Below are positions 44,909 to 60,059 of a stretch of DNA of 64,000 bases, piece by piece. The notes beneath the pieces are model-generated. The model was not told the origin of the DNA and did no database searches. It saw nothing but the letters and a program-made list of their open reading frames with translations. The stretch lies in contig NZ_JAFEWE010000006.1 in NCBI RefSeq assembly GCF_017355785.1, forward strand, positions 1 through 64,000. The letters run 5' to 3'. A program made the position numbers and the translations under genes. Origin of the DNA: Desertivirga arenae. GTDB lineage: Bacteria; Bacteroidota; Bacteroidia; Sphingobacteriales; Sphingobacteriaceae. Position 1 is the first letter of the stretch. Every line of letters begins with the position of its first letter.

Positions 44909-47083
44909 ATGAAGCAAACCAGGGAGATAAAGAATTTCATATATAGTCAATATTTTACCGATGGCCTTCGGATTACATTTGGGGTACTTCTACCCCCTTT
45001 AATTTTTTCGCAAGCAGGGCATTTAGATATCGGCATTACTGTTTCATTGGGAGCTATTACAACAAGTATTCCTGATACCCCCGGCCCGGTTGTTCATAAG
45101 AGAAATGGTATGATGGCTAGCATTGGTTTCATGCTATTTACTGCCTTGCTTACAGGGCTGATAAATCACTCGCCGGTCCTGGTTGCTATGGAGGTTCTTC
45201 TTTTATCCTTTTTTTATTCCATGTTCAATGTTTATGGTAACCGGGCATCTTCTGTTGGAACAGGGGTTCTGATTGTCATGATATTAAATATTGAAAGAGA
45301 GTTTAGTGCGGCTCAACTTTTCCAGTATTGCGGGTTCTTACTATTGGGAGGCATCTGGTATATGGCTCTTAGCGTGGCAATTTCAATGCTTCAACCGTAT
45401 AGGATTGCCCAGCAGGCTTTAGGGGAATCCATAGAAAAAGTGGCTGATTACCTGCGATTGAAAGCTCGGTTTTATAATCCAGTTACAGATCTTGATCTGA
45501 ACTACAAAAAACTGGTAGAAAAGCAGATCGACGCCCACCAACAACAAGATGTAGTGCGAGAAATTCTCTTCAAGAATAAGTTGGTTACCAAAAATCCATC
45601 AGATACTGCTCGCTTGCTGGTTCTGCTTTTCTCTGATATTGTAGATCTATTTGAGCAGAGCATGGCTACTCATTATGATTACAGGGCCGTAAGGGAAAGA
45701 TTTGAAGGCAGTTCTGTACTACGTGAGTTTCAAACTATTATTCAGAACATTGGTGACGAATTGGAGAACTTAGGCCATGCTGTAACAGCTAATGAGCGGC
45801 CTAAACAGCTTCATAATTTTCAAAATCAGTTAGAACAGTTGAAGTACCATATTGATATGGTGGACAATAATCTTATCCTCAAAAAGATATTAATTAATGT
45901 TCGGAACATCATAAATCGCATTCAATCTATTTATGGGTATTTCAGGGAGAAAAAAGTAGATAATATTAAGAAAGGGACAGAAAAAGATCTTGACAGGTTT
46001 GTTTCCCGACAAGCTATCGATCCCAAATCCTTTGTTGATAATCTTAGTCTTAAATCCAACAACTTCAGACATGCTTTACGTGTTTCCATTGTTTGTGTAT
46101 TAGGTTACATTATCTCTACCATGATCGGTGGAAGTCATAGTTATTGGGTGTTACTAACTATTGTAGTTATCCTGAAACCAGCCTTTAGCCTGACTAAAGA
46201 ACGTAACTATCAGCGTTTAATTGGAACCTTTGTAGGAGGAATTGTGGGAGCACTGGTGATCTACTACGTGAAGGACCCAACACAACGCTTCCTCATCATG
46301 CTGGTTTTTATGATCGGTGCCTATAGTTTTCAACGGCTTAACTATGTAGTTACAGTTCTGTTCATGACTCCTTTTATCCTGATCATGTTAAGCTTTATTG
46401 GTTACGGAAGTTTGAAAGTAGTTGAAGAACGCATTATTGACACCTTTATAGGTTCTTTTATTGCATTAGTGGCGAGTTACTTTGTTTTTCCTGCCTGGGA
46501 GTATTTCCACCTCCGTTCGCATATGCGAAAACTCCTGATTGCTAATTATCATTACCTTGCTGAAATAGCATTAACTTTTACCGGAAAAGAACTTGATGTG
46601 GTAGAGTATAAACTAGCTAGAAAAGAGGTGTATGTTCAGTCGGCTAATATGGGATCTGTGCTTCAGCGAATGTTATCAGAACCTAAAGACAAACAGATGC
46701 ATGTTAATGAGGTGAACAATTTCATTGTTTTAAACCATAGTCTTTCCTCTTACATTGCAACTTTAGCGACTCATATAAAAGCTGAGGAAAGACAGCTGAT
46801 CAATCCGGGGCATGTAAAAACCTTAAGGAAAGCCCTGTTCCACTTGTGTGAAAGTATTGCGCAACTGCAGTCAGATAACCAAACCGGATTTAAGGAGATT
46901 GATTTGAAAGCTCCGGAGGCTGCTTTGAAACTTGCTGAAGAAAGTCCGGATTCGAGGTTAATTACTGAACAGTTAGATTTTATTAGCAAAGCATCATCGG
47001 ATTTGTTAAAGATCACGCAAAAAGTGAGCGGTCAGGTTGAAAATCCAACTTTAGAAAAAGCAGTAAATACGCAGCCTGCTTAA
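44909..47083 (+). CDS. FUSC family membrane protein (YccS/YhfK-like)
   Basis: 724 residues. Two sets of membrane helices (about 15-165 and 388-540) flank a cytoplasmic domain (185-380), and a third cytoplasmic region ends the protein. SHSYWVLLTIVVILKPAFSLTKERNYQRLIGTFVGG is the FUSC signature in the second half. The family includes the aromatic-acid efflux component AaeB and YccS/YhfK, probably exporters or permeability proteins. No efflux partner (membrane fusion protein or outer-membrane channel) is adjacent. It is monocistronic. Confidence 0.88.
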   Translation: MKQTREIKNFIYSQYFTDGLRITFGVLLPPLIFSQAGHLDIGITVSLGAITTSIPDTPGPVVHKRNGMMASIGFMLFTALLTGLINHSPVLVAMEVLLLSFFYSMFNVYGNRASSVGTGVLIVMILNIEREFSAAQLFQYCGFLLLGGIWYMALSVAISMLQPYRIAQQALGESIEKVADYLRLKARFYNPVTDLDLNYKKLVEKQIDAHQQQDVVREILFKNKLVTKNPSDTARLLVLLFSDIVDLFEQSMATHYDYRAVRERFEGSSVLREFQTIIQNIGDELENLGHAVTANERPKQLHNFQNQLEQLKYHIDMVDNNLILKKILINVRNIINRIQSIYGYFREKKVDNIKKGTEKDLDRFVSRQAIDPKSFVDNLSLKSNNFRHALRVSIVCVLGYIISTMIGGSHSYWVLLTIVVILKPAFSLTKERNYQRLIGTFVGGIVGALVIYYVKDPTQRFLIMLVFMIGAYSFQRLNYVVTVLFMTPFILIMLSFIGYGSLKVVEERIIDTFIGSFIALVASYFVFPAWEYFHLRSHMRKLLIANYHYLAEIALTFTGKELDVVEYKLARKEVYVQSANMGSVLQRMLSEPKDKQMHVNEVNNFIVLNHSLSSYIATLATHIKAEERQLINPGHVKTLRKALFHLCESIAQLQSDNQTGFKEIDLKAPEAALKLAEESPDSRLITEQLDFISKASSDLLKITQKVSGQVENPTLEKAVNTQPA

Positions 47084-47295
47084 TATTAGATACTCTTTAA
47101 AGGGTTGGCAAGGATCTATGAAAGGAAAAAATCTTCCAGACTACTTAATAACCTGAGCGCTTGATTTCGGTATGGGTACCTCCTATCCTCCTCCTGACTG
47201 CAATTGGTATAGAATCTAATTTGAAGAAATAAAAGTTTGCTGTTCTTATGGAGAAGAACCTGCTTTAGCATCTTTATACTATAGAACCTAAAGCA

Positions 47296-47829
47296 ATGGC
47301 AGAATTAAACTCTTCAGCTGGAAGCCTCAGAGGCAAAGGCCGTACTTCAACTTTATCTCCAAAGGTAGACATGACTCCAATGGTAGATCTTATGTTCCTT
47401 CTTATCACGTTCTTTATGCTAACCACCTCCCTGGCCAAGCCATTTATGATGTCACTAGCTATGCCTGTTGGCGAGACTCCTGGATTAGAGGTTGCAGATA
47501 ATCGTACCATGAATATATGTATTGGTAAGGATAACAGTTTACAGTGGTATATGGGAAAAGCTGACAGTCCCCTAACATCTCCACATATTATCAATTTTTC
47601 TATAGAGGGTTTGCGGAAAACGTTGAACACCCAGAATAAGAGAGTTCAGCAATTGACGCGGAGCCGGGAGAAAGGAGTAATCGTCTTAATTAAGCCAACA
47701 GATAAGTCTAACTATAAAAATCTGGTAGATGTATTGGATGAGTTGAAAATAACTGGAATAGATAACTACATGATAGTAGACGCTTTACCTAAAGATATTG
47801 AAAGAATGAAAAGTTCGGCAATTTATTAA
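47296..47829 (+). CDS. ExbD/TolR-type biopolymer transport protein
   Basis: 177 residues. A short basic cytoplasmic start, one helix (about 33-52) preceded by the functionally key Asp in VDMTPMVDLMFLLITFFML, then a periplasmic domain ending VIVDALPKDIER. ExbD uses the proton gradient with ExbB to energise TonB. No exbB or tonB gene is adjacent, so this is an isolated copy, and it may work with components elsewhere or support the TonB-type receptor of this window. The gap upstream (47084-47295) shows no other gene. Confidence 0.9.
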   Translation: MAELNSSAGSLRGKGRTSTLSPKVDMTPMVDLMFLLITFFMLTTSLAKPFMMSLAMPVGETPGLEVADNRTMNICIGKDNSLQWYMGKADSPLTSPHIINFSIEGLRKTLNTQNKRVQQLTRSREKGVIVLIKPTDKSNYKNLVDVLDELKITGIDNYMIVDALPKDIERMKSSAIY

Positions 47830-47841
47830 ATCTATAAAAAA

Positions 47842-47862
47842 GACCAGAGCAATGCTCTGGTC
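47842..47862 (-). terminator. Terminator of the PRC-barrel stress cluster
   Basis: Perfect 9-bp stem GACCAGAGC (47842-47850) / GCTCTGGTC (47854-47862), three-base loop. On the minus strand it is followed by TTTTTT, so it ends the transcript from 49515 to 47891. The plus strand has no T-run. Confidence 0.85.
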
Positions 47863-47890
47863 CTGATTCCCTGATAAAGGCTAAAAGTGA

Positions 47891-48340
47891 TTATTGCTGA
47901 TCTTTAAGCCGCTTATCCAGATCTATCTCAGAACTTGTTTTATCGAGGTTCTCACGGAAGTTCTCTTTAATGTTCTCCGAATTATATTGAACCTGATCTT
48001 TTCCCATATCTCCATTTGTTCCTGCATCAAAAGCAATTTGCTCACTTCCCGGAGGATTATCTCCTAGCAAGTTCTTAGTTACCGGAGCCTCAGCATCATT
48101 CAGAGGATCTGTATTATTATCTGGGATGGTTTTTTCCAGAAAGTTACTGACACCCTCATCGTTGCCAGGAACAGTATTCAGCACTTCATCCTGATCATCG
48201 AAGTCTGGCCGATTTTCATCCTCAATTCTTGTCACCAGGTCCATACTATTCAACTGCTCCTGTTCATCCAGGGATGTGGACTGTTCAGGCTGGTCTTCAC
48301 CAAAGCCTTCATCTTCCAAATAATCATCTTTATCTATCAT
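47891..48340 (-). CDS. Acidic, probably disordered protein of unknown function
   Basis: 149 residues, extremely rich in Asp, Glu, Asn and Gln, with almost no hydrophobic core: MIDKDDYLEDEGFGEDQPEQ at the start and DLDKRLKDQQ at the end. It has no recognisable domain, signal or helix. It lies 31 bases downstream of the PRC-barrel/YflT gene with a terminator after it, so it belongs to that stress cluster. Such proteins often act as hydrophilins or desiccation protectants, which is only a suggestion by composition. Confidence 0.6.
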   Translation of the reverse strand: MIDKDDYLEDEGFGEDQPEQSTSLDEQEQLNSMDLVTRIEDENRPDFDDQDEVLNTVPGNDEGVSNFLEKTIPDNNTDPLNDAEAPVTKNLLGDNPPGSEQIAFDAGTNGDMGKDQVQYNSENIKENFRENLDKTSSEIDLDKRLKDQQ

Positions 48341-48371
48341 AGGGATGTATTTTTACTTTAACAAATTTAAA

Positions 48372-49292
48372 TTATCGTTCGATGATCCTGCTTCTGAATC
48401 GTCTTGGCGAATTTGAAGAGCTGGATGCAATTCTGCTACGGTACGCCTTTACTGTTTCATCTATATTAATCGCTCCGTTTCGATCCAGTATTTCAGCGGC
48501 CCTTTCTGCTTCTGCGATCGATAACTTGTTAATGATCACAACAGGATATTTCCGACCGTCATCAGAATCGAGCCAGCCTGATTCTTCAGAACTAAATAAA
48601 TTTGAAAAAAAACCACTGATTCCTTCTTTCTCGTGCAGGTTACCCCGGGCTATATCCTCTTGATCGCGAAAGACAATTTGAACTTCTCTTCTATTAAAGC
48701 CGCTTTCTAATAAATGATTTTCTGCCAATTCAGCTTCCCTTCTCGATTGAAAAACACCCGCCACTGATTGCTTTCTAACTTCGTCACTTTCATAACGATC
48801 CGTAATTTGTTCAGCCGCAACAGGTCTTTCATCTTTTGTTATATACTCCCGGGATGTTCCAGTGTAACTTCTGGTATCGGTAACCAAATTGGCGGAAGGT
48901 CTATTTCCAGAACTGAAGTTATGGAAGGTATTATTAATAATCTCTTCGGTTTTAACAGTGAGGCTATTTCTATCGTAATTTGGTAAAGAACTTAGCTCGT
49001 TAGCAGAAATGCCTGGGTAAACTACATTCTTGTATACTTCATCCAATTCTGCGTACTCAAGGGGTAAGAGAATCTTTCTTCCCATCATATACAATTCGTT
49101 TCCATCCGTATCTAGAATAAAGTACTTCACTTTATGAGCCTTGGTATCAAGAATAAGATCGTTAACCTTACCCAGGATCCTCCCATAATCGTTTTTTACT
49201 ATCCAGCCTCTTATATCTGGTTCTCCAGGGGCCATTTCGTATTTACTATTGCCTAGTTCTCTAAAATGTGTAATTTGATTATTTTCAGCCAT
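48372..49292 (-). CDS. PRC-barrel / YflT-like stress protein
   Basis: 306 residues. A PRC-barrel (about 22-110: IRGWIVKNDYGRILGKVNDLI, VKYFILDTDGN) is joined by a Ser/Asn/Arg-rich linker to a YflT-like module (about 175-285: VAGVFQSRREAELAE, SGFNRREVQIVF, FFSNLFSSEESG, AERAAEILDRNGAINIDE). The FFSNLF segment and the AAEILD-N-GAI-D ending are nearly the same as in the protein at 1196-2065. The tail is basic and Ser-rich. It probably heads a unit with the acidic gene downstream. Function is unknown, with stress association from the family. Confidence 0.82.
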   Translation of the reverse strand: MAENNQITHFRELGNSKYEMAPGEPDIRGWIVKNDYGRILGKVNDLILDTKAHKVKYFILDTDGNELYMMGRKILLPLEYAELDEVYKNVVYPGISANELSSLPNYDRNSLTVKTEEIINNTFHNFSSGNRPSANLVTDTRSYTGTSREYITKDERPVAAEQITDRYESDEVRKQSVAGVFQSRREAELAENHLLESGFNRREVQIVFRDQEDIARGNLHEKEGISGFFSNLFSSEESGWLDSDDGRKYPVVIINKLSIAEAERAAEILDRNGAINIDETVKAYRSRIASSSSNSPRRFRSRIIER

Positions 49293-49386
49293 AATACTCT
49301 CTTATTAGGTTTTACAAGAAAAGATTGAATGAAAGGTCTTAGGCCCTTCATTCAACACTTTATTTATTGATCTTGCCAAGGTTGAA

Positions 49387-49515
49387 TTAGGAATGCAACT
49401 GTCCGGACTGGTAATACATGTATAAAAAATACAAAGCCGCAGCCAGTATAAGTATTACAATAAGCCAAAGCCACCCTGTGCTTCTGCGCTTGCGTTGAAC
49501 GTGTAATTCTGCCAT
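49387..49515 (-). CDS. 42-residue single-helix membrane protein
   Basis: From ATG 49515: MAELHVQRKRRSTGWLWLIV, then ILILAAALYFLYMYYQSGQLHS. A strongly basic cytoplasmic start (QRKRR) is followed by one clear membrane helix and a Tyr-rich end, a topology expected for a genuine membrane micro-protein. It lies 94 bases upstream of the PRC-barrel gene on the same strand and may be the first gene of that stress unit. Similar tiny proteins accompany PRC-barrel or CsbD-type stress genes in related organisms as far as I recall. Confidence 0.6.
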   Translation of the reverse strand: MAELHVQRKRRSTGWLWLIVILILAAALYFLYMYYQSGQLHS

Positions 49516-49711
49516 TGTTGTTTTTTAGCTTTTAATTGTACAAAAGTTAGCAAATCACTATATTGCCTTATAGAGCTATTATCATACCAAAATCAGGATC
49601 GCTGACCTTTTTAATTCTTAAAGAACATTTTGATTACCCCTGCCGTAAAACGAAGGAATAAAAAGCGATGTGATCGCAGGATAGGTATTAAATATAACGA
49701 GCATCAATTCT

Positions 49712-50176
49712 ATGCCTGATAAAAAAATAACAGTACTTTACGTAGACGACGAACCAAATAACTTATTTTCTTTTAAAGCTACGTTCAGATTAAAGTACAA
49801 TATAATTACTGCAACGAGTGGCGATGAAGCCATGGAGATCCTAAAAAAGACTCCTATCGAAATTATTATCACTGACCAGCGCATGCCGAATATGACTGGC
49901 GTGGAGTTCCTGGAGAAAGTGCTCGAAATTAATGCTGAGCCCATGCGACTGTTATTAACCGGATATGCGGATATGAATGCGGTGATAGATGCAGTTAATA
50001 AAGGGAAGATTTTCCATTACCTGACCAAACCCTGGAATGAAGAAGAACTTACTATGTCAATAGAACGGGCTTACGAAGTCTATGTCCAGCAAAAAGAAAT
50101 TGTGGATATGAATAGCAAACTTTTAGTATCTAATGATCAGCTTGAATTTTTGCTGAGGCAGAAATTACTGGATTAA
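49712..50176 (+). CDS. Response regulator (receiver with helical tail)
   Basis: 154 residues. The receiver has VDDEPNN at 11-17, phospho-site D55 in ITDQRMPN, Thr of LLTGYAD and Lys of LTKPW, all intact. A 30-residue helical tail (RAYEVYVQQKEIVDMNSKLL) follows instead of an output domain. It is clearly a paralogue of the N-terminal receiver of the hybrid at 50667-51752 (same DDEPNNL, FKA, FRL-Y and TGY-D patterns). It faces the signalling operon on the other strand across a very strong terminator and may compete for, or carry, phosphate from the same kinase. Confidence 0.9.
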   Translation: MPDKKITVLYVDDEPNNLFSFKATFRLKYNIITATSGDEAMEILKKTPIEIIITDQRMPNMTGVEFLEKVLEINAEPMRLLLTGYADMNAVIDAVNKGKIFHYLTKPWNEEELTMSIERAYEVYVQQKEIVDMNSKLLVSNDQLEFLLRQKLLD

Positions 50177-50187
50177 AAAGCTTTATT

Positions 50188-50233
50188 CGATATAAAAGCA
50201 AAAGGGCCAAAAGGCCCTTTTGCTTTTATATCG
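50188..50233. terminator. Very strong bidirectional terminator
   Basis: A 21-bp perfect stem: 50188-50208 with 50213-50233, core AAAAGGGCC / GGCCCTTTT, loop AAAA. Both strands give a T-rich right arm. It insulates the two converging signalling transcripts. Confidence 0.9.
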
Positions 50234-50265
50234 GTTTCTACAATTATCCGGGTATTTAATAAGAA

Positions 50266-50658
50266 TTATTGGAGTAATAAAGGAGACAGAGACTCGGCTG
50301 TGATCGGTTTATCCATAATATTGTTCACTGTATCATAACTGCAAATCTTGTCAATATCATTCTTATTCATAGAAGAAGTAAGAGCTATGATCTTATACTT
50401 GTCTTTCGTATCCTGAGGCAGTTTCTCAAACTCCTCAACAAATACAAAGCCACTCATAATTGGCATTAATACATCAAGTATGACAATTGTTAGAGGAGTA
50501 TCCTCCCTGACTGGCGACTCTTTAATAAATTCGAGTGCTTCTGTAGCTCCCAAAAAGCAATTCACCTCCTCACATTGTCCTGTATACCTTATCATCTTTT
50601 CTGCTATATAGCAGTCCAGCGCACTATCATCAATAATAATAAACTTATACTTTCCCAT
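50266..50658 (-). CDS. Single-domain response regulator
   Basis: 130 residues. Acidic pair IDDS (9-12), phospho-site D62 in ILDVLMPIMSG, Ser/Thr in ALTSSMN and Lys in MDKPIT are present. The loop before the active site (KESPVREDTPL) is longer than usual. There is no output domain. The gene starts eight bases after the stop of the receiver-kinase hybrid and is the last gene of the signalling operon, so it is a likely phosphate acceptor of the two kinases upstream. Confidence 0.9.
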   Translation of the reverse strand: MGKYKFIIIDDSALDCYIAEKMIRYTGQCEEVNCFLGATEALEFIKESPVREDTPLTIVILDVLMPIMSGFVFVEEFEKLPQDTKDKYKIIALTSSMNKNDIDKICSYDTVNNIMDKPITAESLSPLLLQ

Positions 50659-50666
50659 CTAGCTAA

Positions 50667-51752
50667 TCATTTACTTGGAATAGTCACATTGAAGGTCGCC
50701 CCTTCTCCTAGTTCCGATTCTACCTTAATCTCCCCGTTAAGCTTTAACAATGCATCCTTAACATTATACAGGCCAAATCCTGAACCTGCTTCAGTAGTAG
50801 TTGCCCTATAAAACAAGTTAAAGATCTCTCCCAAATGATTGGAGGGGATACCGATCCCATTATCTCTTACTGTAAAATAGGCGGTATTTTTGATCACCTC
50901 TGCACTAAGTTCCACTTTTTTATTCGGAAGATCTCTTTTCTGATATTTAAAGGCATTTGACAATAAGTTATTGAGGATCAACTTCAGCGAGGTTTCATCG
51001 CAGCGGAAAGCCTCTGTCTGAGAAACAGTAGTATTAAAGGTAATACCATTAGCATTACTATAAATACTATAAATATCCGTGAGATCTTTAATTACGTTCT
51101 CAAGGCTGATCTCCTTGATCTTTAGTTCTCCACGCTGGAGATTATAATAGTCATGAACACTTAGAATAAAGGTATCAAGCTTTTTAACGGAATTCTCCAT
51201 TAAGTACAACATCTCCTTCATGTCTTCAATTGACTCCAAATGTTTTACTACCCTTATTGCTCCAAGAATCCCGGAAAGGGGACCTCTTATATCGTGACTA
51301 ACGCTGTAAGCAAACTTATCTAATTCGTTATATGCAATCTGTAGCTCTTCATTTTTCAACGCAAGAAGAGAGTTAGATATATAAAATTTATTTGCCTCTT
51401 CTATGGCTGAAATAATATCAGCATCCACCCAGGGTTTCTTCACATACCTGAAAATGTGCCCACGGTTAATGGCGTCGATTACAGCTTCTATATCAGTATA
51501 TCCGGTTATAAGGATCCTTATAGGCAGTGGATGCTTTTCCCTAACCTCTTCAAAAAATTCCACTCCTGTTTTATTCGGCATCCTCTGATCACAAAAAATA
51601 ATTCTTGTGTCGGGATGCTTATCCAGGATTCCATAAGCATCCTCAGTGTTGCTTGCCGTATATACACTATAATCCAACCGGAATGATGCCTTAAAACCTA
51701 CAAGGTTATTAGGCTCATCATCAATATATAATATCTTAACTTTTTCTGGCAT
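50667..51752 (-). CDS. Receiver-histidine kinase hybrid
   Basis: 361 residues, soluble. N-terminal receiver with D55 (FCDQRMPN) and VKKPW Lys, a linker helix, then a HisKA domain with H153 in AYSVSHDIRGPLSG, and an ATPase domain with N-box LNNLLSNAFKYQ, DNGIGIP and GSGFGLYNV. The receiver-first order means that the kinase can be switched by phosphorylation, for example from the membrane kinase encoded just upstream. It ends eight bases before a lone receiver gene. This is a typical phosphorelay middle element, with the final output not encoded here. Confidence 0.9.
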   Translation of the reverse strand: MPEKVKILYIDDEPNNLVGFKASFRLDYSVYTASNTEDAYGILDKHPDTRIIFCDQRMPNKTGVEFFEEVREKHPLPIRILITGYTDIEAVIDAINRGHIFRYVKKPWVDADIISAIEEANKFYISNSLLALKNEELQIAYNELDKFAYSVSHDIRGPLSGILGAIRVVKHLESIEDMKEMLYLMENSVKKLDTFILSVHDYYNLQRGELKIKEISLENVIKDLTDIYSIYSNANGITFNTTVSQTEAFRCDETSLKLILNNLLSNAFKYQKRDLPNKKVELSAEVIKNTAYFTVRDNGIGIPSNHLGEIFNLFYRATTTEAGSGFGLYNVKDALLKLNGEIKVESELGEGATFNVTIPSK

Positions 51753-51806
51753 TATGCCTATAATTTAATATTTAAGGTGAAAGGGAGGTTGTAATTTATA
51801 CAAGTT

Positions 51807-53996
51807 TTACACCGGTATAGTTGCCTCTAATTTATGTATTACCGGCAAATTGATGATAAATTCTGTACCCTCTCCTAAGGTCGAGTTCATAGTAATAATA
51901 CCATTATGCTTTTTAATAGTATTATAGGCTATGGACATACCTAAACCGGTTCCCTCACCCACTTCTTTTGTGGTGAAGAAAGGTTCGAAAATTTTCCTCA
52001 TTGTCTTCTCATCCATCCCTGTTCCGTTATCAGAAATCTTTATGAATACATGCTCTTCATCGTGACTTGTAATAATTTTAACCTCTCCGCCAGGAGTATC
52101 TCCAAACTTTTTATTAATTGCATGGATTCCATTAGAAATGATATTTAGAAAAACCTGATTTAGCTTCCCCGGATAGCATTCAATTAACGGAAGATTAGCG
52201 TATTCCCTGGAAACCACTATCCTATTATTAAGCAAGTTATTAATAATAATCAAGGTTGAGTCTAAACCTTCATTAATATCTGCCCGTTTTAAGTCGTCTT
52301 CATCCACACGGGAAAAGATCCTGAGGCCTTTAACTATTTCAGCTGTACGAGAAGCACCTTCATGAATACCTTTAAGCAGATGATCAATTTCGATCTTAAG
52401 GTAATCAAAATCCATCTCTTCCTTATACTCTTCTATTTTTCTGACCTTCTCATCCTGCGCGTCTGCCGATAAACCTACTTCTTCAATAGTATGGATCACA
52501 TCCAGAAGCATTTTAACATCACGTTTTAATGGAGCTACGTTAGATGTAACGAAGTTGATCGGGTTGTTGATTTCGTGAGCAATTCCAGCAGTTAACTGTC
52601 CAAGTGACGCCATCTTTTCTGAATCAACTAATTGACTTTGAGTTTGCTTCAAATGTTCAAGGGTGGTATTTAATTCCTCATTGGATTCCTTCAACTCTAT
52701 GGTGCGTTCAGCTACTCTTTGCTCTAGAACAACGTTTTGCTCGCGGATAATTCTTTCGTTTTCCTGAGCAACTTTCAATGCCTGTAACTGAGACAATTCT
52801 TTTTCCTTCTTTAATGTGTTGATCTTTCCAGCCAATGCAAAAGACAGGAATACAGCCTCAAGAGCAGAGCCAATCTCAACAGAATGCAGTGTGAAGGCAT
52901 TATAAGGAACAATGCCGTAATCTTTAGCCACGAAAACAAGAATACTTGCAAAGAAGATTGTCCAGCTGAGCAAGAAGTACCTGGCGGGCGCAAAGTTTCT
53001 TCTATAGACCACCCAAGCAACGATCATGATCAATATAGACACAATAGCAGCATTGACATTTACTATTTGAAAAGCCACAGGCTTATGTCCAACCAACAAA
53101 ACAATTATTGAAGTTATGTAAACACCTATTGTTCCGTAAAGAAGCAGACTTAAACGGGGTGAATATAAGCTGGTCCTGAGGAAGGATATAGAAAACATAA
53201 TAGTTCCAATACCTGACATTGCTCCACATATAATTACCATATTCTCGGCCAACCACTTGTTCTCAGGCCAAAGGAAACGATGAGAAAAACCCAAAAGTGT
53301 AGCTTGGGTAAGCGTTACCCAGAAGTTATAATGACAGTAAACAAGATAATCTCTATCGCGTGTAGTAAAGTATATAAAAAGATTGTACAAAAGCATTACC
53401 AGCATAATACCGAGGTAAAAGCTTGTACGACTATCAGAAACACTTATGTCCTGGAAAATCTTTTTCTCGGTTGCCAGGCTTAAAGGCGCAAGTATTTGCT
53501 GATTGCTTTTTAATTTAACAAAGCATTCGACTTTTTCATTCTTCTTTAGATAAATGTCATAAAGATAGAACTGGTGTTTATACGGTCGATTTGTAAAATA
53601 ATCCGAATTATTAATTTTGATACTGTCAACCCTGTTACTTCTAACGATGTAAAGATTAGCAATATCAATTATAGGATTTGATATATTTAAAGTAACCTTT
53701 CCTAGTTCAGTATCATTTTTAATAAGAAATTTAACCCAGTTATTAGCCTTACTCACTCCCAGATTAGGAACATCAGAAATACTCTTTTTGAAAATATTCC
53801 GGGTGGCTTTCACCTGATCAAATGACAAGCTTTCACTGGAGTCCTGGAAGATGTAAAGATCCTTCCCAATAAAATTCTCATGAATTGCCTTGCTAAGGGC
53901 AATAGTGTCCTGACCCTTCACACGTATAGATGCTACCAAACACATAAAGGCAAGCAGCATCAAATACTTTCCTCTCATATAATAAGCTTTAAACAT
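51807..53996 (-). CDS. 7TMR-DISM sensor histidine kinase
   Basis: 729 residues. Signal peptide (1-28), a periplasmic DISMED2-type beta domain (about 35-180), seven membrane helices (190-390) with LGIMLVMLLYNLFIYF at the start, a coiled coil (395-460) and a kinase core: H474 in GIAHEINNPINF, N-box FLNIISNGIHAI, DNGTGM and GEGTGLGMSI. 7TMR-DISM proteins sense ligands outside the cytoplasm, often sugars or lipids by their lectin-like domain. The gene lies 24 bases after the ThiF-like gene and 54 bases before the hybrid kinase, in one operon. Confidence 0.92.
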   Translation of the reverse strand: MFKAYYMRGKYLMLLAFMCLVASIRVKGQDTIALSKAIHENFIGKDLYIFQDSSESLSFDQVKATRNIFKKSISDVPNLGVSKANNWVKFLIKNDTELGKVTLNISNPIIDIANLYIVRSNRVDSIKINNSDYFTNRPYKHQFYLYDIYLKKNEKVECFVKLKSNQQILAPLSLATEKKIFQDISVSDSRTSFYLGIMLVMLLYNLFIYFTTRDRDYLVYCHYNFWVTLTQATLLGFSHRFLWPENKWLAENMVIICGAMSGIGTIMFSISFLRTSLYSPRLSLLLYGTIGVYITSIIVLLVGHKPVAFQIVNVNAAIVSILIMIVAWVVYRRNFAPARYFLLSWTIFFASILVFVAKDYGIVPYNAFTLHSVEIGSALEAVFLSFALAGKINTLKKEKELSQLQALKVAQENERIIREQNVVLEQRVAERTIELKESNEELNTTLEHLKQTQSQLVDSEKMASLGQLTAGIAHEINNPINFVTSNVAPLKRDVKMLLDVIHTIEEVGLSADAQDEKVRKIEEYKEEMDFDYLKIEIDHLLKGIHEGASRTAEIVKGLRIFSRVDEDDLKRADINEGLDSTLIIINNLLNNRIVVSREYANLPLIECYPGKLNQVFLNIISNGIHAINKKFGDTPGGEVKIITSHDEEHVFIKISDNGTGMDEKTMRKIFEPFFTTKEVGEGTGLGMSIAYNTIKKHNGIITMNSTLGEGTEFIINLPVIHKLEATIPV

Positions 53997-54020
53997 TTCT
54001 TAATTTAACCAGGTTGACAT

Positions 54021-55088
54021 TTACCCATTAAAAATTTGATCAAGGTCTACGTAATACCTTCCGGAGGTTTGATGTTCCCCCAGCAGAATTCGGCGACATA
54101 TATCAGTAGTGATAGCTCCTCCCAATACTACGGAAGAAGCCAGTTGTGGCCAGGTGTTAATAGTTATATTAATTTCCTTCATGGACATCTTCATGCGCTC
54201 TGACAGTGTATCAAAATTCAGGATTGCATTAACCACTTCCATCCGATTTTTATCTGTCACTTCTATCGCTCCATTTTCAATAAATGCCTCCAACCGGCCA
54301 TGCATTATTGGCCTTTCAGGTTCCAGATCGAATCGCTCTACATCAAGCATCCCCCTGTCGTTTGTATCCATCACAACAGGCATTTTAAGTTGTTTTGCCT
54401 TAAACCTGCTTACTAATTTCATCCCAATCCCATCACATACTTCTACGTACAGATCCAGCTTCCGTTCCAAACCGAAAAAGGCATCTATATTATCTTCTTG
54501 AAGACCGTCATTGAATATCTCTACTTTAACAAAAGGATCAATTTCAGCAATTTCCCGTGCGGCGATGATAGTTTTCCTTAATCCCAAATTATGAACCCCT
54601 GTTCTTATTCGATTCAGATTACTAAGTTCGGCGGTATCAAAATCAGCCAATCTTATCTCTCCGCAAGTCCTTTCCATTACAAGCGTTAGCGCTATAGACT
54701 GTCCCACAGATAAACCTGCAATCCCTATACATTTAGTACGAAGGATATTTTGCTCCTCCCGTGTGATCTTATTGCGGTTCCGATTTGTCCTGACTTCTAT
54801 AAATTCTTCCTCATCCAGGAGGTGTACTATGGTACGGCTCCAGGGATAATACACCCAAACTCCATACTCACTTAATTCCTTATCGCCAATATGTTCTGAA
54901 ATGAGGCTTTGAAAATCTTCCTCAGAAAGCTTCATTGAGGGGTGCTTAATCTTAATAAGCTCACGAATTTGCCCTATGATCTCGTCGTGAACTATAATTT
55001 GGGGATCACCATCCAGCAAAGCATCGAACGAAACCTTCTCTGGCAAATTAGCAGTACGAAATATAGTAGGTAAAAAAATCTCTTGCAT
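54021..55088 (-). CDS. ThiF/E1-like adenylyltransferase
   Basis: 355 residues. An N-terminal region (1-110) without known motif is followed by an E1-like Rossmann fold: glycine-rich IAGLSVGQS (123-131), DFDTAELSNLNRIRTG (149-164, acidic and Arg residues for Mg-ATP), then NDRGMLDVERFD. The zinc Cys pairs of MoeB/ThiF and an obvious thiolation Cys are absent. Such enzymes adenylate a C-terminal carboxylate. No ubiquitin-like or ThiS partner gene is nearby, so a small molecule may be the substrate (inference). It sits between the GNAT-like gene (33 bases) and the sensor kinase (24 bases). Confidence 0.85.
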   Translation of the reverse strand: MQEIFLPTIFRTANLPEKVSFDALLDGDPQIIVHDEIIGQIRELIKIKHPSMKLSEEDFQSLISEHIGDKELSEYGVWVYYPWSRTIVHLLDEEEFIEVRTNRNRNKITREEQNILRTKCIGIAGLSVGQSIALTLVMERTCGEIRLADFDTAELSNLNRIRTGVHNLGLRKTIIAAREIAEIDPFVKVEIFNDGLQEDNIDAFFGLERKLDLYVEVCDGIGMKLVSRFKAKQLKMPVVMDTNDRGMLDVERFDLEPERPIMHGRLEAFIENGAIEVTDKNRMEVVNAILNFDTLSERMKMSMKEINITINTWPQLASSVVLGGAITTDICRRILLGEHQTSGRYYVDLDQIFNG

Positions 55089-55121
55089 AAATAAGTTCGA
55101 CTGAGCGAGTTTTGATTGTAA

Positions 55122-55937
55122 TTAATTAAATGGAAAGCTCATTTTTGCTTCATCAGGTTTAGCGTTCTGGTAGTTTCGATAAGCCTCTGAGATCGTATCC
55201 GTCAAACTCCATTTTTCCAGATTAGGAACCTGTGTTTGATAGTGTATCGTTATATTCTTCCCCCTTAACGTTTCCATTCTGACCGTATTAAAACTATTCC
55301 GGATATTCAAAATTGCCTGCCTGTCATCCTCTTGGGCAGTAGAAAGCCCTTCTAAATCTGTAACTACCATTGTTGTTGCAACAAGATCCTCCTTTGGATA
55401 ATAGAAGGTTCCATCTTTTCCTACCCTTGGTTCTAATTGCATACCAACTCCTTCAACCGGCTTTACTGTATAGGGGGCACAAAGCGCAAAAAGCGATTTT
55501 AAACCTATCTGATAAGCTACCGCTACAGCCGCCCTTATTAGAAATATACTTCCGATCCCATATCCTGCGATCTCTCTCGAATTCCATAAACCACACAACT
55601 CACCTGTACCATTCTGAGCATAAGACCAAACTAAGTCGAAAACGTTGGGATCAATAGCACCTGTGGCTTGTTCTAAAGGCAACAATTCTGTTCCTCCCGA
55701 AACATGTACCCGGGCTCCGCCATATACACGCTCGCCGTCCAATGATTCTACGATCAATACGAAAGCAGCAGGATTTTTGGTCCATTCGTTCTTTGATGAA
55801 GTAACTTTGGTAATTCCAATACTCGTTAATACATGTTCATGTCCCTGGACAAAGAGTTGGCAAGCCTCAGGATCATCAACTGCACGAAAGGCCCTCAATC
55901 GGACCTCTGGATTTTCCTTATTTAAAGCGTTCCCCAT
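55122..55937 (-). CDS. Autoinducer-synthase/GNAT-like acyltransferase
   Basis: 271 residues, soluble. Residues 15-190 look like the GNAT fold as used by LuxI/FeeM-type N-acyl synthases: RAFRAVDDPEACQLFVQGH at the start, the strand pair YGGARVHVSGG, and after GTGELCGLWNSREIAGYG an alpha helix (SIFLIRAAVAVAYQIG) leading into LFALCAPYT. In LuxI-type enzymes an E/S-R residue pair lies at the same place. If this holds it would join an acyl group from acyl-ACP or acyl-CoA to an amine. It is the first gene of the signalling operon. The call is by pattern only. Confidence 0.6.
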   Translation of the reverse strand: MGNALNKENPEVRLRAFRAVDDPEACQLFVQGHEHVLTSIGITKVTSSKNEWTKNPAAFVLIVESLDGERVYGGARVHVSGGTELLPLEQATGAIDPNVFDLVWSYAQNGTGELCGLWNSREIAGYGIGSIFLIRAAVAVAYQIGLKSLFALCAPYTVKPVEGVGMQLEPRVGKDGTFYYPKEDLVATTMVVTDLEGLSTAQEDDRQAILNIRNSFNTVRMETLRGKNITIHYQTQVPNLEKWSLTDTISEAYRNYQNAKPDEAKMSFPFN

Positions 55938-56311
55938 TAAGTAAATGAATTAGTTTTCCAGCAAATTAAAAACCATAACAACTTGTATAATATCATCAGG
56001 AGTTTTATTTGCTAACCCAAAAGTTTATACGGATCGGTTTTAGAAAAAGATCACTTAATTTGAAAAAGAGTTTTTTAATGTTTTATATATGACATTGATT
56101 TTAAAAGTATTCCCTGATTTTCGGCTGCTATTTAGTGGGGAATAGCAGGAGGAAAGAATTTAATTACAAAACTTTATATACCTTAAGGCCTGTAAAACAA
56201 AATTTGCAACCAGCAATACAAGCAAAGGCATTGAGCTGGCGGGTAAGCTAGGGAGAATACACTTTGAAGCTTGAAAAGAACTAATACAGGATAAATATAT
56301 TATAAAGGACA
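55938..56311. other. Gene-free divergent intergenic region
   Basis: 374 AT-rich bases between the signalling operon and the plus-strand gene at 56312, so both promoters should lie here. One hairpin is visible: CTGCTATT (56125-56132) with AATAGCAG (56141-56148), loop TAGTGGGG. No gene is supported, as short frames encode fewer than 20 residues. No clear TAnnTTTG box was found. Confidence 0.55.
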
Positions 56312-56839
56312 ATGGAACTTAATATCGGAATTGGCTCACGTGTTGCCCACCCTTCCTTTGGTAAGGGTGTTGTAATAAACATCAGGTCTAATGCTTATCT
56401 GATTACATTTATAGAAAGTGGATATAAAGAGATACCTCTTTCGGATGATATTGAGGTGCTCGATGATATGGCGCCCGATACGGACATGGTGAGTGCCTGG
56501 GAAGTGGAACAGACGTTGAAGAAGATCCTGCAGAAGTGGTCGGATGTTTCTGAAGTGGTGCCCTTAGGAGACAAGTGGAAGAATGGAAAGATGGTCTTGC
56601 ACCCTGGGAATGCTGGGCTTGCTCCTAAAGAAATCCCTATCGACCAATTCTTCAATAAGATTGTTATGGTAAGGGACAGACTAAGAGTAATGGAACAAAG
56701 GATTAATGCCAGTGACCTTAGCAATGAAGAAAAAGTAAACCTTCAGCAATACATTACAAGGATCTATGGAAGCTTAACAACCTTCAACATCCTTTTCAAA
56801 TACAAAGAAGATCAGTTTGTGGGAGAGAAAACCTCTTAA
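56312..56839 (+). CDS. Protein of unknown function with Tudor-like N-terminus
   Basis: 175 residues, soluble. Residues 5-45 (IGSRVAHPSFGKGVVINI, then YLITFIESGYKEIPL) resemble the small beta barrel found at the end of UvrD/PcrA helicases and in some RNA-polymerase-binding proteins. The rest is helical (VSAWEVEQTLKKILQKWSD, FFNKIVMVRDRLRVMEQRI, LSNEEKVNLQQYITRIYGSL). A role in binding nucleic acid or polymerase is a guess from the first part. It is monocistronic with its own terminator. Confidence 0.65.
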   Translation: MELNIGIGSRVAHPSFGKGVVINIRSNAYLITFIESGYKEIPLSDDIEVLDDMAPDTDMVSAWEVEQTLKKILQKWSDVSEVVPLGDKWKNGKMVLHPGNAGLAPKEIPIDQFFNKIVMVRDRLRVMEQRINASDLSNEEKVNLQQYITRIYGSLTTFNILFKYKEDQFVGEKTS

Positions 56840-56852
56840 ATCATCTTTTAAT

Positions 56853-56890
56853 AAATGGAAAGTAATACTAATAAGTAATACTTTCCATTT
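56853..56890. terminator. Terminator between convergent genes
   Basis: AAATGGAAAGTA (56853-56864) pairs with TACTTTCCATTT (56879-56890), 12 bp, followed by TCTTTT on the plus strand. It serves the gene ending at 56839 and possibly also the convergent CBM48 gene. Confidence 0.8.
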
Positions 56891-56898
56891 TCTTTTAA

Positions 56899-57189
56899 TT
56901 AAACGACAAGAACACTGTTAGTGCTGCCAAAAGCGTTAGGACTTTGCTTATCTGCATCCGGCTCCTCTAACCATTCGGTTCCGTCAATCCTGTATTTGAA
57001 TTCATGTTCGGTGTTTTTTGGCAAAGTAACCTCTGCACTAAAAGTACCGTCTTTCTTCTTATTCAATAAAATAGAATTTTCCCAATCGCTATTTAATCCT
57101 AATATCTCTACCTTTTCAGCACTTTCTGGCTTAACTATAAATTTAACCTTGCAGAGATCCTTAGTCTTTAAGTATGTTTTTTGAAGCAT
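56899..57189 (-). CDS. Isoamylase-N/CBM48-like (AMPK glycogen-binding) domain protein
   Basis: 96 residues forming a single early-set beta sandwich: CKVKFIVKPESAEKVEILGL, NSDWENSILLNKKKDGTF, the aromatic-rich EFKYRIDGTEWLEEPDA, then NSVLVV. This is the isoamylase-N/CBM48 type that binds alpha-glucans in glycogen-branching enzymes and AMP-activated kinase. Here it stands alone without a catalytic domain, as in many Bacteroidota. The conserved W and E-F-K-Y-R-I-D-G pattern is clear. Partner and role are unknown. Confidence 0.85.
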   Translation of the reverse strand: MLQKTYLKTKDLCKVKFIVKPESAEKVEILGLNSDWENSILLNKKKDGTFSAEVTLPKNTEHEFKYRIDGTEWLEEPDADKQSPNAFGSTNSVLVV

Positions 57190-57489
57190 AATTTTTATTG
57201 CATTAATAATTTAATACCAATTTTAAGAAATAATAAACATTTTCATAGTAAAACTAGAAATAAATTTTAATTATCAAAAAAAGTATTGAAAATTTATTTA
57301 CCAGTTGAACATTTTATTATAATGTCGACTTGCGTATAACACCCTACTGCTGCTTTTGTTTAGGATATATGAAGCATGCACTGATATTTCTTCAACAATT
57401 ATCTCAGAAACTTGAAAATGTGTAAACCTTAAATGAGAAATGCCCCTGGATTAACAGGGGCATTTCTCATTTAAAGTTATATTTTCTCT
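57190..57489. other. AT-rich intergenic region with a possible 18-codon frame
   Basis: 300 bases between two minus-strand genes. The left 180 are very AT-rich and probably hold the promoter of the CBM48 gene. On the plus strand a frame from ATG 57369 to TAA 57425 reads MKHALIFLQQLSQKLENV and is followed four bases later by a strong hairpin, so a tiny transcript or small RNA is possible. I would not call it a gene. Confidence 0.3.
57431..57472. terminator. Long hairpin, terminator of the phosphatase-like gene
   Basis: 18-bp perfect stem, 57431-57448 with 57455-57472, core TGCCCCTG/CAGGGGCA, loop GATTAA. It begins 18 bases after the stop of the minus-strand gene at 57490. The T content after it is modest on both strands. 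Confidence 0.75.
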
Positions 57490-58608
57490 CTAAAGATCTT
57501 TCACCTTCACAACTTGTAATTGCCTGCGTTTAAATTCCTTCAAAATGGCTAAAGCTGATTTTGACTCAGTGTTCCAATGATGAACTACCAAAGGGCGAGG
57601 ACTTTCAAGGATCTGATCAGCAATTTCTTTGACTTTTTTGTTACTTGCGTCCTCAGCAAGTGGTAAATTAACAACAGATAACTCATAGGGATTTAACATA
57701 GCCTTCTCTTCTTCTACGATTTTCCTTATATCAGGTGTTGTTGGGTTTAGTAAGTTAACTACAGTCTTATAATTTCCGGCTAATATATATCCAAGGAACT
57801 CCTCTTTTGTAGGATAAGGAATAAAATAGAGGCCTTCCGTTACCTTATATATGTCTCCCCTTTCAAAGCTTCCAATTTCTTCCAGAGTGCGATGGGCAAC
57901 CGTTGAGCCTATCTTTGTTGTATCACTTATCCTCGAAATTAAATTCTTCACAACATTCACCCGATCTTTTCCAAGGTAGCAGTGTACATAGTACTTTCCT
58001 TTTCCAGATTTGACAAGCTTTTTAATTACTTCAATTGATTGAGTATTCTCACTTAACCAAGGAAGCATTGGTGCCTTTATCAACTCAATGCCTGATGATC
58101 TGGCGTTCTCCTCCTCATCCGAAAGCAACTTTAGCTCAAAAGGAGCCACAGCAGGATGCAATAAAGTAATAATGCCTGTATATCCTTCAGCCTTTAATTT
58201 CTCAACCTGCGCTTTCTCAGGATAAGGACCTATCGTGAAGCGATCTGAAACTACATGGTTTTCACCTGATGTATTAATTGCAGCTGGATTCATCATATAA
58301 GCGACTGCTACGGTGCTTAAAATGAGAGGTATCACGAAAATAGCTACTTTAGCAATAGAGCTTTTTGAATTCCGTAATGTTGTCAATGCCCATAAAGATA
58401 GAGCTACTGAAATTAAGATCAGTAGTGCGATTAAAAGCATAACACTTGCACTCTCCGAGCTCTGACTCCAGTTATGATCTCTGGAATAATTAATAACAGA
58501 TCGCAATGGACCGAGAAGTAATCCTGTTCCTATTGGGTACCCTATAAAGACTATTAAAAAAACAAGGATCAGCCATTCCCTCAAGCCCTTTGGCAGATTT
58601 CTTTTCAT
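57490..58608 (-). CDS. Membrane protein with tandem dual-specificity-phosphatase-like domains
   Basis: 372 residues. Three N-terminal membrane helices (12-34, 56-78 and 88-107), then two similar soluble domains. Domain 1 (118-240) has the tyrosine-phosphatase signature H209-C210-YLGKD-R216, that is C-x5-R, and a preceding strand with FTIGPYPEKAQVEKL. Domain 2 (255-372) repeats the layout (YFIPYPTKEEFLGYI, TVVNLLNP), but its site reads H343-H344-WNTES-K350, so Cys and Arg are replaced. The first should be a phosphatase, the second a binding or regulatory copy. The substrate could be phosphoprotein, lipid or inositol phosphate. Confidence 0.75.
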   Translation of the reverse strand: MKRNLPKGLREWLILVFLIVFIGYPIGTGLLLGPLRSVINYSRDHNWSQSSESASVMLLIALLILISVALSLWALTTLRNSKSSIAKVAIFVIPLILSTVAVAYMMNPAAINTSGENHVVSDRFTIGPYPEKAQVEKLKAEGYTGIITLLHPAVAPFELKLLSDEEENARSSGIELIKAPMLPWLSENTQSIEVIKKLVKSGKGKYYVHCYLGKDRVNVVKNLISRISDTTKIGSTVAHRTLEEIGSFERGDIYKVTEGLYFIPYPTKEEFLGYILAGNYKTVVNLLNPTTPDIRKIVEEEKAMLNPYELSVVNLPLAEDASNKKVKEIADQILESPRPLVVHHWNTESKSALAILKEFKRRQLQVVKVKDL

Positions 58609-58729
58609 ATAGTAAGGTTAAACAGAGGATCTTACGCTTAGTATAATCCAAGGGTTACAGTTTGTTTCGGTAAGGCTGGAGAAAGACTACCAGAATAAGA
58701 GGTAAGATTGTTCAATAAGTTACAACAAA

Positions 58730-58753
58730 AAACCCGGACATCTGCCCGGGTTT
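58730..58753 (-). terminator. Terminator of citrate synthase gene
   Basis: AAACCCGG (58730-58737) pairs with CCGGGTTT (58746-58753). On the minus strand it is followed by TTTTTTGTTG. It lies 20 bases after the gltA stop. Confidence 0.85.
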
Positions 58754-58772
58754 CCTATATCTTCTAAAAAAG

Positions 58773-60059
58773 TTAACGTTTCGAACGTTCCACAAATTCT
58801 CTTTCTACATGCCCTACGTAAACCTGACGAGGACGACCTATAGGCTCTTTATTTTCACGCAACTCTTTCCATTGTGCTATCCATCCAGGTAACCGACCTA
58901 AAGCAAATAATACAGTAAACATATCCGTAGGGAAACCTAAAGCACGGTAAATGATACCGGAATAGAAGTCTACGTTCGGGTAAAGTTTACGCTCTACGAA
59001 GTATGAATCATTAAGAGCAGCTTCCTCCAGTTTCTTAGCGATCTCAAGTACAGGATCGTTTATTCCAAGTTTGTCAAGAATATCATCGCAAGCCTTTTTA
59101 ATGATCTTAGCCCTTGGATCAAAGTTTTTATATACCCTATGACCAAAGCCCATCAGGCGGAAATTGTCGTTCTTATCTTTCGCTTTCGCAATCCACTTAT
59201 CAGTGTCACCACCATCTTCCTTAATTTTCTCTAGCATTTCGATCACCGCCTGATTAGCGCCACCGTGAAGAGGCCCCCAAAGTGCGGAAACACCAGCCGA
59301 GATAGATGCATATAAATTAGCTTCAGAAGAACCTACTATACGTACAGTAGATGTTGAACAGTTTTGCTCGTGATCTGCGTGAAGGATCAAAAGTTTATTC
59401 ATTGCATCAACAACAACAGGATCAACTTCAATTTCATGAGTAACCTGACCGAAAGTCATATTCATGAAGTTTGAGATATAATCTAGTTTGTGTTGAGGAT
59501 AGATGAATGGCTCTCCCAAAGAACCCTTATAGATCCAGGAAACGATAGTTGGCATTTTAGCCAATAGCTTAATGATGGTAAGATTTATATCGTCTTTCGT
59601 TGGATGAGTATTTAAACTCTCCGGATCAAAGGCTGAAAGAGAACTTACAAGAGATACCAATTGCCCCATGGGATGAGCCTTTGGAGGGAAACCGTCGTAG
59701 AACTTTTTATAATCTTCGTGCAGAAGCGCATGCTTGCTCAACTGGGCCTGAAAATCATCTAACTGCGTTTGCGATGGAAGATCTCCATATATTAAAAGGT
59801 AAGCTACCTCCAGGAAAGAGGTTTTCTCAGCTAATTGCTCAATAGGATAGCCTCTGTATTTTAGAATACCCTGCTCACCATCTAAATAAGTGATCGCACT
59901 TTTAGTACATCCGGTATTTTTATATCCGCTGTCAAGTGTGATATAACCAGTTAAATCACGAAGCTTTGAAATATCAATCGCTTTCTCATTTTCGGTGCCG
60001 GTAATCACCGATAAGTCGTACGTTTTGTCGTCTAGGGTTAAAGAGGCTTTATCTGACAT
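58773..60059 (-). CDS. gltA: Citrate synthase
   Basis: Type II citrate synthase (EC 2.3.3.16), condensing acetyl-CoA and oxaloacetate. I start at ATG 60059 (MSDKASLTLDDK), giving 428 residues; an upstream in-frame ATG adds seven unlikely residues. The N-terminal beta domain (1-50) of the hexameric type is present. Catalytic and substrate residues lie in LILHADHEQNCSTSTVR, GALWGPLHGGANQAV and RLMGFGHRVYKNFDPR, with FYSGIIYRALGFP carrying the active-site Asp. It is monocistronic with its own terminator. It fits with Mqo in an oxidative TCA cycle. Confidence 0.97.
   Translation of the reverse strand: MSDKASLTLDDKTYDLSVITGTENEKAIDISKLRDLTGYITLDSGYKNTGCTKSAITYLDGEQGILKYRGYPIEQLAEKTSFLEVAYLLIYGDLPSQTQLDDFQAQLSKHALLHEDYKKFYDGFPPKAHPMGQLVSLVSSLSAFDPESLNTHPTKDDINLTIIKLLAKMPTIVSWIYKGSLGEPFIYPQHKLDYISNFMNMTFGQVTHEIEVDPVVVDAMNKLLILHADHEQNCSTSTVRIVGSSEANLYASISAGVSALWGPLHGGANQAVIEMLEKIKEDGGDTDKWIAKAKDKNDNFRLMGFGHRVYKNFDPRAKIIKKACDDILDKLGINDPVLEIAKKLEEAALNDSYFVERKLYPNVDFYSGIIYRALGFPTDMFTVLFALGRLPGWIAQWKELRENKEPIGRPRQVYVGHVEREFVERSKR

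Follow-up and report, generated by a model that had tools for sequence, protein, structure and literature searches.

Among the closest described relatives of the system reported here are the TrzAS (Rv1356c–Rv1355c), TyzACB and OxzAB pathways, in which a FeeM-like N-acyltransferase is encoded beside a ThiF cyclase. TrzA N-acylates tryptophan, and its partner TrzS, which is Rv1355c, uses its ThiF domain to cyclise the product at the expense of ATP and its flavin oxidase domain to desaturate it, giving an N-acyl tryptazolone; replacement of the ATP-site aspartate of TrzS (D217A) abolishes cyclisation (PMC12856293). Oxazolones are labile to acid, and the group that characterised the mycobacterial ones has named the role of bacterial oxazolones a major unresolved question (PMC12856293). 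Here we analyse a five-gene operon of Desertivirga arenae, a soil-type bacterium of the Bacteroidota, that lies in positions 1–64,000 of contig NZ_JAFEWE010000006.1 (this whole stretch of 64,000 nucleotides is referred to as the window; genome size 6.19 Mb). Its genes 1 to 5 encode a FeeM-like acyltransferase, a ThiF protein of the same family as the cyclases above, a 7TMR-DISM kinase, a receiver–histidine kinase and a lone receiver. Many of its Bacteroidota relatives share with the known pathways a fused flavin oxidase as well. The window operon differs in having no oxidase, and the Bacteroidota cassette differs in being fixed to a 7TMR-DISM kinase and phosphorelay, an arrangement not described for those pathways.

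We propose, with a probability of roughly 70%, that the operon is a self-contained make-and-sense signalling system with the chemistry set out below and a matched exchange of sensors. An original prediction made from the window alone had suggested that the first two genes make a signal that the kinase detects. Independent support for it comes from the sensor half of the kinase, which varies with the tailoring enzyme rather than with the kinase half to which it is joined; the exact product, its secretion and its sensing are inferred.

Sensor halves and tailoring enzymes

Related loci are of three types, distinguished by their tailoring enzyme. Type A, that of the window, has the cyclase only; type B has a cyclase fused to a nitroreductase-fold flavin oxidase (FDO); and type C has an S-adenosylmethionine (SAM) methyltransferase replacing the cyclase. 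About a dozen loci (L202–L213) are of type C, with the methyltransferase lying between the acyltransferase and the 7TMR-DISM kinase (for example, L202:8921-9685) and presumably acting on the N-acyl amino acid. The type B oxidase half itself splits into about 20 groups. In two loci, L039 and L022, the FDO half is degenerate and no longer has the conserved SGGNxQPW-type residues, although the cyclase half is intact; L039 has a sensor of the cyclase-only type, which falls in the sensor cluster of the window.

Pairwise comparison of related loci revealed a mosaic. The window is 68% identical to a type A locus of the same genus in the sensor half, 77% in the kinase half and 72% in gene 4, whereas against a type C locus of the same genus the sensor half drops to 33% with the kinase half at 70.5% and gene 4 at 73%. 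Generally, where the type differs, sensor halves are about 30% identical, whereas their own kinase halves and the downstream genes are 70–94% identical; the kinase half alone is 70–92% identical across loci whose sensor halves share about 30%. Sliding windows place the break in identity at residues 360–420, at the end of the seven-transmembrane (7TM) domain. Among 123 non-redundant loci, every different-type pair with at least 75% downstream identity had a sensor half no more than 39.8% identical.

Phylogenies gave the same picture. The methyltransferase label changes once on the sensor-half tree, compared with 8 times on the kinase-half tree, 9 on that of gene 4 and 7 on that of gene 1. Type C sensor halves form one clade (support 100), whereas monophyly of the corresponding kinase halves is rejected by an approximately unbiased (AU) test (p 7e-6). 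All three labels together change 11 times on the sensor tree; in shuffles the number of changes is 40 or more. Independent-pair sign tests on the kinase trees yielded 2 and 4 pairs on supported branches, all concordant and too few for significance.

Sensor and enzyme also vary together within type B, in which sensor identity tracks oxidase-half identity even when cyclase, acyltransferase, kinase half and gene 4 are controlled for (partial r 0.58; maximum 0.12 in 500 permutations) and is not correlated with that of its own kinase half (partial r −0.07). Loci L016 and L027 differ in the oxidase half (28% identity) and the sensor half (31%), whereas the acyltransferase gene between these two segments is 89% identical and the kinase half 92%; relatives are not independent, and this clean case with a well-conserved intervening gene is one event. 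Enzyme and sensor half co-vary, which is the pherotype pattern of two-component quorum sensing. We regard this mosaic as the strongest evidence, and it supports a make-and-sense system well beyond co-location.

Acyltransferase and cyclase

The original prediction had given the gene 1 product an N-acyl-synthase-like GNAT fold and had proposed structure prediction and a fold search against LuxI and FeeM as a check. An AlphaFold2 model of gene 1 (pLDDT 91.9) has the acyl-synthase fold expected, with FeeM (2g0b) as the top solved match in Foldseek (E 3e-7, probability 1.00); next come the CoA-dependent N-acyl homoserine lactone (AHL) synthases BjaI, MesI and RpaI. The alignment of 43 homologues contains 23 invariant columns. 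Gene 1 does not qualify by sequence as a LuxI-type AHL synthase: no autoinducer-synthase model in Pfam or NCBIfam matched, and FeeM ranked above the AHL synthases. We propose that its product attaches a fatty acyl group to an amino acid.

Gene 2 contains a ThiF domain (PF00899, E 2e-13) and matches the Rv1355c family, NF005901, with an E value of 2e-134, over profile positions 13–339 of 722 only; its score of 449.3 bits misses the curated equivalog cut-off of 476 bits. Residues R160, K172, D219 and D244 are invariant among 144 homologues. D219 may correspond to D217 of TrzS. No NF005901 member above the cut-off was present in the control genomes of the family search. FDO was absent from the D. 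arenae genome, including as a stand-alone copy, whereas three oxidase-type control genomes gave clear matches. Of the features that mark an N-acyl oxazolone pathway, the window thus has a FeeM-like acyltransferase beside a cyclase and a ThiF cyclase with ATP-site residues, and lacks a fused or adjacent oxidase. Gene 2 is the cyclase half alone of the Rv1355c/TrzS family, which turns N-acyl amino acids into oxazolones. The product expected by homology is an N-acyl amino acid cyclised to a saturated oxazolone, or something derived from it. The original prediction, which had called the protein an E1-like adenylyltransferase without a sulfur-carrier partner, was right that it is ThiF-like; the protein is better described as a TrzS-type N-acyl-amino-acid cyclase than as an orphan E1.

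Elsewhere, a Saprospiraceae metagenome-assembled genome has the cyclase and acyltransferase fused in one open reading frame (ORF) of 632 aa (L064:6409-8307), with no adjacent 7TMR-DISM kinase. Loci L154 and L161 contain cyclase–oxidase genes with no adjacent acyltransferase or kinase, and these possibly have a different role or are remnants.

Sensor kinase and phosphorelay

Gene 3 has an N-terminal hydrophobic helix or signal peptide, followed by 7TMR-DISMED2, 7TMR-DISM_7TM, HisKA (slightly below the cut-off) and HATPase_c domains, the combination that identifies a 7TMR-DISM histidine kinase. The best structural match to a model of its first 400 residues (AlphaFold2, pLDDT 90.5) is the periplasmic domain of RetS (3jyb). 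Gene 4 has the architecture REC–HisKA–HATPase, and gene 5 and a convergent gene beyond it each encode a lone REC domain. The domain search agrees with the earlier description of the last three genes as a 7TMR-DISM kinase, a receiver–kinase hybrid and a receiver. Just two 7TMR-DISM proteins are encoded in the D. arenae genome. In the other (L225; G000:C12:996204-998123) a zinc-ribbon, transposase-like C terminus replaces the kinase, and its orthologues are widespread in the family.

Linkage across Bacteroidia

We read 58 ThiF cyclase loci from 395 genomes drawn evenly from the class Bacteroidia. A 7TMR-DISM kinase lies within 2.5 kb of ThiF in 51 of them, and three of the seven exceptions are contig ends. 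Within the family, 38 of 39 acyltransferase (GNAT) loci have the kinase. Genes 1 and 4 occur together in 80 of 151 family genomes and are both missing from 64, with gene 1 alone in six and gene 4 alone in one (Fisher p 2e-34). Gene order varies, with acyltransferase or cyclase first, and the set is nonetheless kept together. This gene-neighbourhood comparison had been suggested alongside the original prediction, which would have failed if the first two genes were found mainly away from the kinases; they are not. Given that the genome has only two 7TMR-DISM proteins and that the arrangement recurs at these frequencies, the operon is not a chance assembly. As in two-component quorum sensing, a synthase and a membrane kinase are encoded together and co-inherited.

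A proposed mechanism

By homology to TrzAS, OxzAB, TyzACB and FeeM, gene 1 would acylate an amino acid with a fatty acyl group, and gene 2 would activate the carboxylate with ATP and close an oxazolone (azlactone)-type ring, which no oxidase would desaturate in the window's type. The product would then reach the periplasm or neighbouring cells and bind to the sensor half of gene 3, made up of DISMED2 and the 7TM domain. Phosphate would next be handed on to the REC domains of genes 4 and 5, and probably to that of the convergent gene as well. With a cyclase–oxidase fusion or a methyltransferase, this chassis would make other products in related species, the sensor half of the kinase being exchanged to match. 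The ligand, the secretion of the product, the direction of phosphate flow, density dependence and a cell-to-cell role are likewise inferred. We lean, if only slightly, towards a broader view in which such operons form a widespread class of Bacteroidota cell-to-cell signalling, with operon-made acyl amino-acid or oxazolone pheromones read by 7TMR-DISM kinases in many interchangeable specificity types that spread by modular exchange, comparable to agr but assembled from small-molecule enzymes.

Alternative explanations

An unlikely but credible alternative is that the enzymes make an antimicrobial, a surfactant or a membrane lipid and that the kinase responds to a cue from outside (stress, a competitor or the state of the envelope) and only regulates production, so that the co-exchange of enzyme and sensor would be hitch-hiking, with crossover confined to conserved flanks. 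N-acyl tyrosines (stieleriacines) are antimicrobial and tryptazolone is mostly retained in cells (PMC12856293, PMC12479983). In many loci, moreover, the tailoring gene sits immediately next to the end of the kinase gene that encodes the sensor, and physical linkage could account for some of the co-exchange, which weighs against our proposal. Hitch-hiking does not easily explain, however, why the oxidase and sensor halves of L016 and L027 both changed despite the conserved gene between them, or why sensor identity tracks the enzymes once all flanking genes are controlled for, and an external-cue sensor would have no reason to follow product chemistry through some 7–9 re-assortments. It seems very improbable that the sensor half is just fast-evolving or promiscuously shuffled, its correlation with chemistry being a by-product of shared ancestry. 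Sensor-half identity is below 0.6 of kinase-half identity in 60% of same-type pairs whose kinase halves are at least 60% identical, and distances among relatives are not independent; yet most of these low values among same-type pairs come from pairs in which the oxidase or acyltransferase is divergent. Among different-type operon pairs the proportion is 96%, whereas an unlinked 7TMR-DISM protein of the family, used as a control, gave 0 of 210 pairs with a sensor half below 0.6 of the C-terminal half. The trees, the AU test and a partial Mantel test all favour enzyme over ancestry. Lastly, we give almost no credence to the idea that the ThiF protein activates another protein or a peptide in the manner of an E1, as in ubiquitin-like or defence conjugation. 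The weak matches of gene 2 to the PADLOC E1–E2 model (E 6e-6) and UBA5 (E 2e-5) are expected from the common fold and are far outranked by the TrzS-family match, for which reason we dropped a defence or ubiquitin-like reading; the FeeM-like partner is constant, L064 fuses ThiF and GNAT in a single ORF and the operon has no E2, JAB or ubiquitin-like gene.

Further observations count against a make-and-sense system with this chemistry. Gene 1 had no match to a curated family in Pfam, NCBIfam or sequence-only searches, and structure was needed for the assignment. The window is without the oxidase common to every characterised oxazolone pathway, and its product would consequently be a saturated azlactone, probably reactive, or something else. 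No DNA-binding output domain was found among the operon proteins in the domain search, which leaves the operon without the regulator typical of two-component quorum sensing. Locus L023 combines an intact oxidase with a window-type sensor, sensor clusters 8, 11, 17 and 21 contain mixed types, and in a few loci (L044/L182, L063, L064, L154, L161 and L170) the enzymes occur with no kinase.

Operon layout and setting

The five genes were predicted to lie on one strand with gaps of 33, 24, 54 and 8 bases and to form one operon. The ORF coordinates and gaps are exact, and recurrence of the arrangement across Bacteroidia upholds the operon. The inverted repeat between gene 5 and the convergent receiver gene looks like a terminator shared by both (Table 1). 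The convergent receiver gene belongs with the operon and accompanies it in most related loci, sometimes at its other end. An Rfam scan of 46000–60000 found no RNA element, and matches in sigma-70 promoter and terminator scans were not above chance. The closest named relatives at the operon locus are Pedobacter and Mucilaginibacter.

Table 1. Features of the operon and its convergent neighbour (window positions).
Feature	Position	Strand	Basis
Gene 1, FeeM-like candidate N-acyl amino acid synthase, 271 aa	55122..55937	-	ORF list
Gene 2, ThiF/E1-like putative cyclase, Rv1355c (TrzS) family, 355 aa	54021..55088	-	ORF list
Gene 3, 7TMR-DISM kinase, whole ORF, 729 aa	51807..53996	-	ORF list
Gene 3, residues 1–400: sensor half, exchangeable; putative receptor specificity region	52797..53996	-	PF07696 and PF07695, AlphaFold2 model, identity breakpoint
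Gene 3, remainder: conserved kinase half (coiled coil, HisKA, HATPase)	51807..52796	-	Domain search, cross-locus identity
Gene 4, receiver–histidine kinase REC–HisKA–HATPase, 361 aa	50667..51752	-	Domain search, co-presence with gene 1
Gene 5, single-domain receiver, 130 aa	50266..50658	-	PF00072; position kept in most related loci
Perfect inverted repeat, 21-nt arms, 4-nt loop; probable bidirectional terminator	50188..50233	strandless	
Convergent single-domain receiver, 154 aa	49712..50176	+	Domain search; adjacent in most loci, on either side

Upstream of the operon lies a divergent gene (56312-56839, plus strand, 175 aa) with no confident family; it is 82% identical in both same-genus relatives and adjoins the operon there too. 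The window also encodes, at 57490-58608 on the minus strand, a membrane protein with a C-terminal phosphatase-like region and weak family matches at best.

Relation to known systems

To our knowledge, few signalling molecules of the Bacteroidota's own are known. The system is present in about half of the sampled family genomes, in many specificity types, and, if our proposal is true, would open a large new field of cell-to-cell communication. Oxazolones would gain a function, and 7TMR-DISM kinases a self-made class of ligand with concrete candidates. Because a close cyclase relative is here tied to a receptor in which the sensing half varies along with the chemistry, the question of the oxazolones' role becomes directly testable. 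We found no description of a make-and-sense system of this composition in the open-access literature (subscription papers and preprints lay outside the search).

Small-molecule synthases are encoded beside multi-pass membrane histidine kinases in CqsA/CqsS and LuxM/LuxN, which differ from the window operon in having unrelated synthases and sensor domains and other signal chemistry. In staphylococcal agr (AgrBDCA), the variable region runs across the genes that make the signal and into the sensor half of the kinase; on its flank are the conserved kinase half and conserved downstream signalling genes (PMC10482373). The loci described here likewise hold a variable signal-making block and sensor half inside a conserved chassis, and would work like agr without being homologous to it: agr is a Firmicutes system with a peptide signal and an AgrC-type kinase, whereas here a small acyl amino-acid product is expected, with a 7TMR-DISM kinase, in Bacteroidota, and with no DNA-binding regulator in the operon. 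In stieleriacine or N-acyl dehydrotyrosine clusters (NasY), genes for ThiF, a nitroreductase and a methyltransferase accompany an N-acyl amino acid synthase (PMC12479983), and these are the tailoring enzymes that alternate in the Bacteroidota loci; they differ in being secondary-metabolite clusters of Planctomycetota with no linked receptor described. RetS, LadS and other 7TMR-DISM kinases share the DISMED2 jelly roll and 7TM domain with gene 3, but these kinases are not known to lie beside a signal synthase, and the exchangeable sensor half is new. The enzyme families, the kinase family and two-component quorum sensing are already known; their combination, with a small-molecule tailoring step and exchangeable 7TMR-DISM sensor halves, did not turn up in the open literature searched and would add a new signal class and a new receptor class to two-component cell-to-cell signalling.

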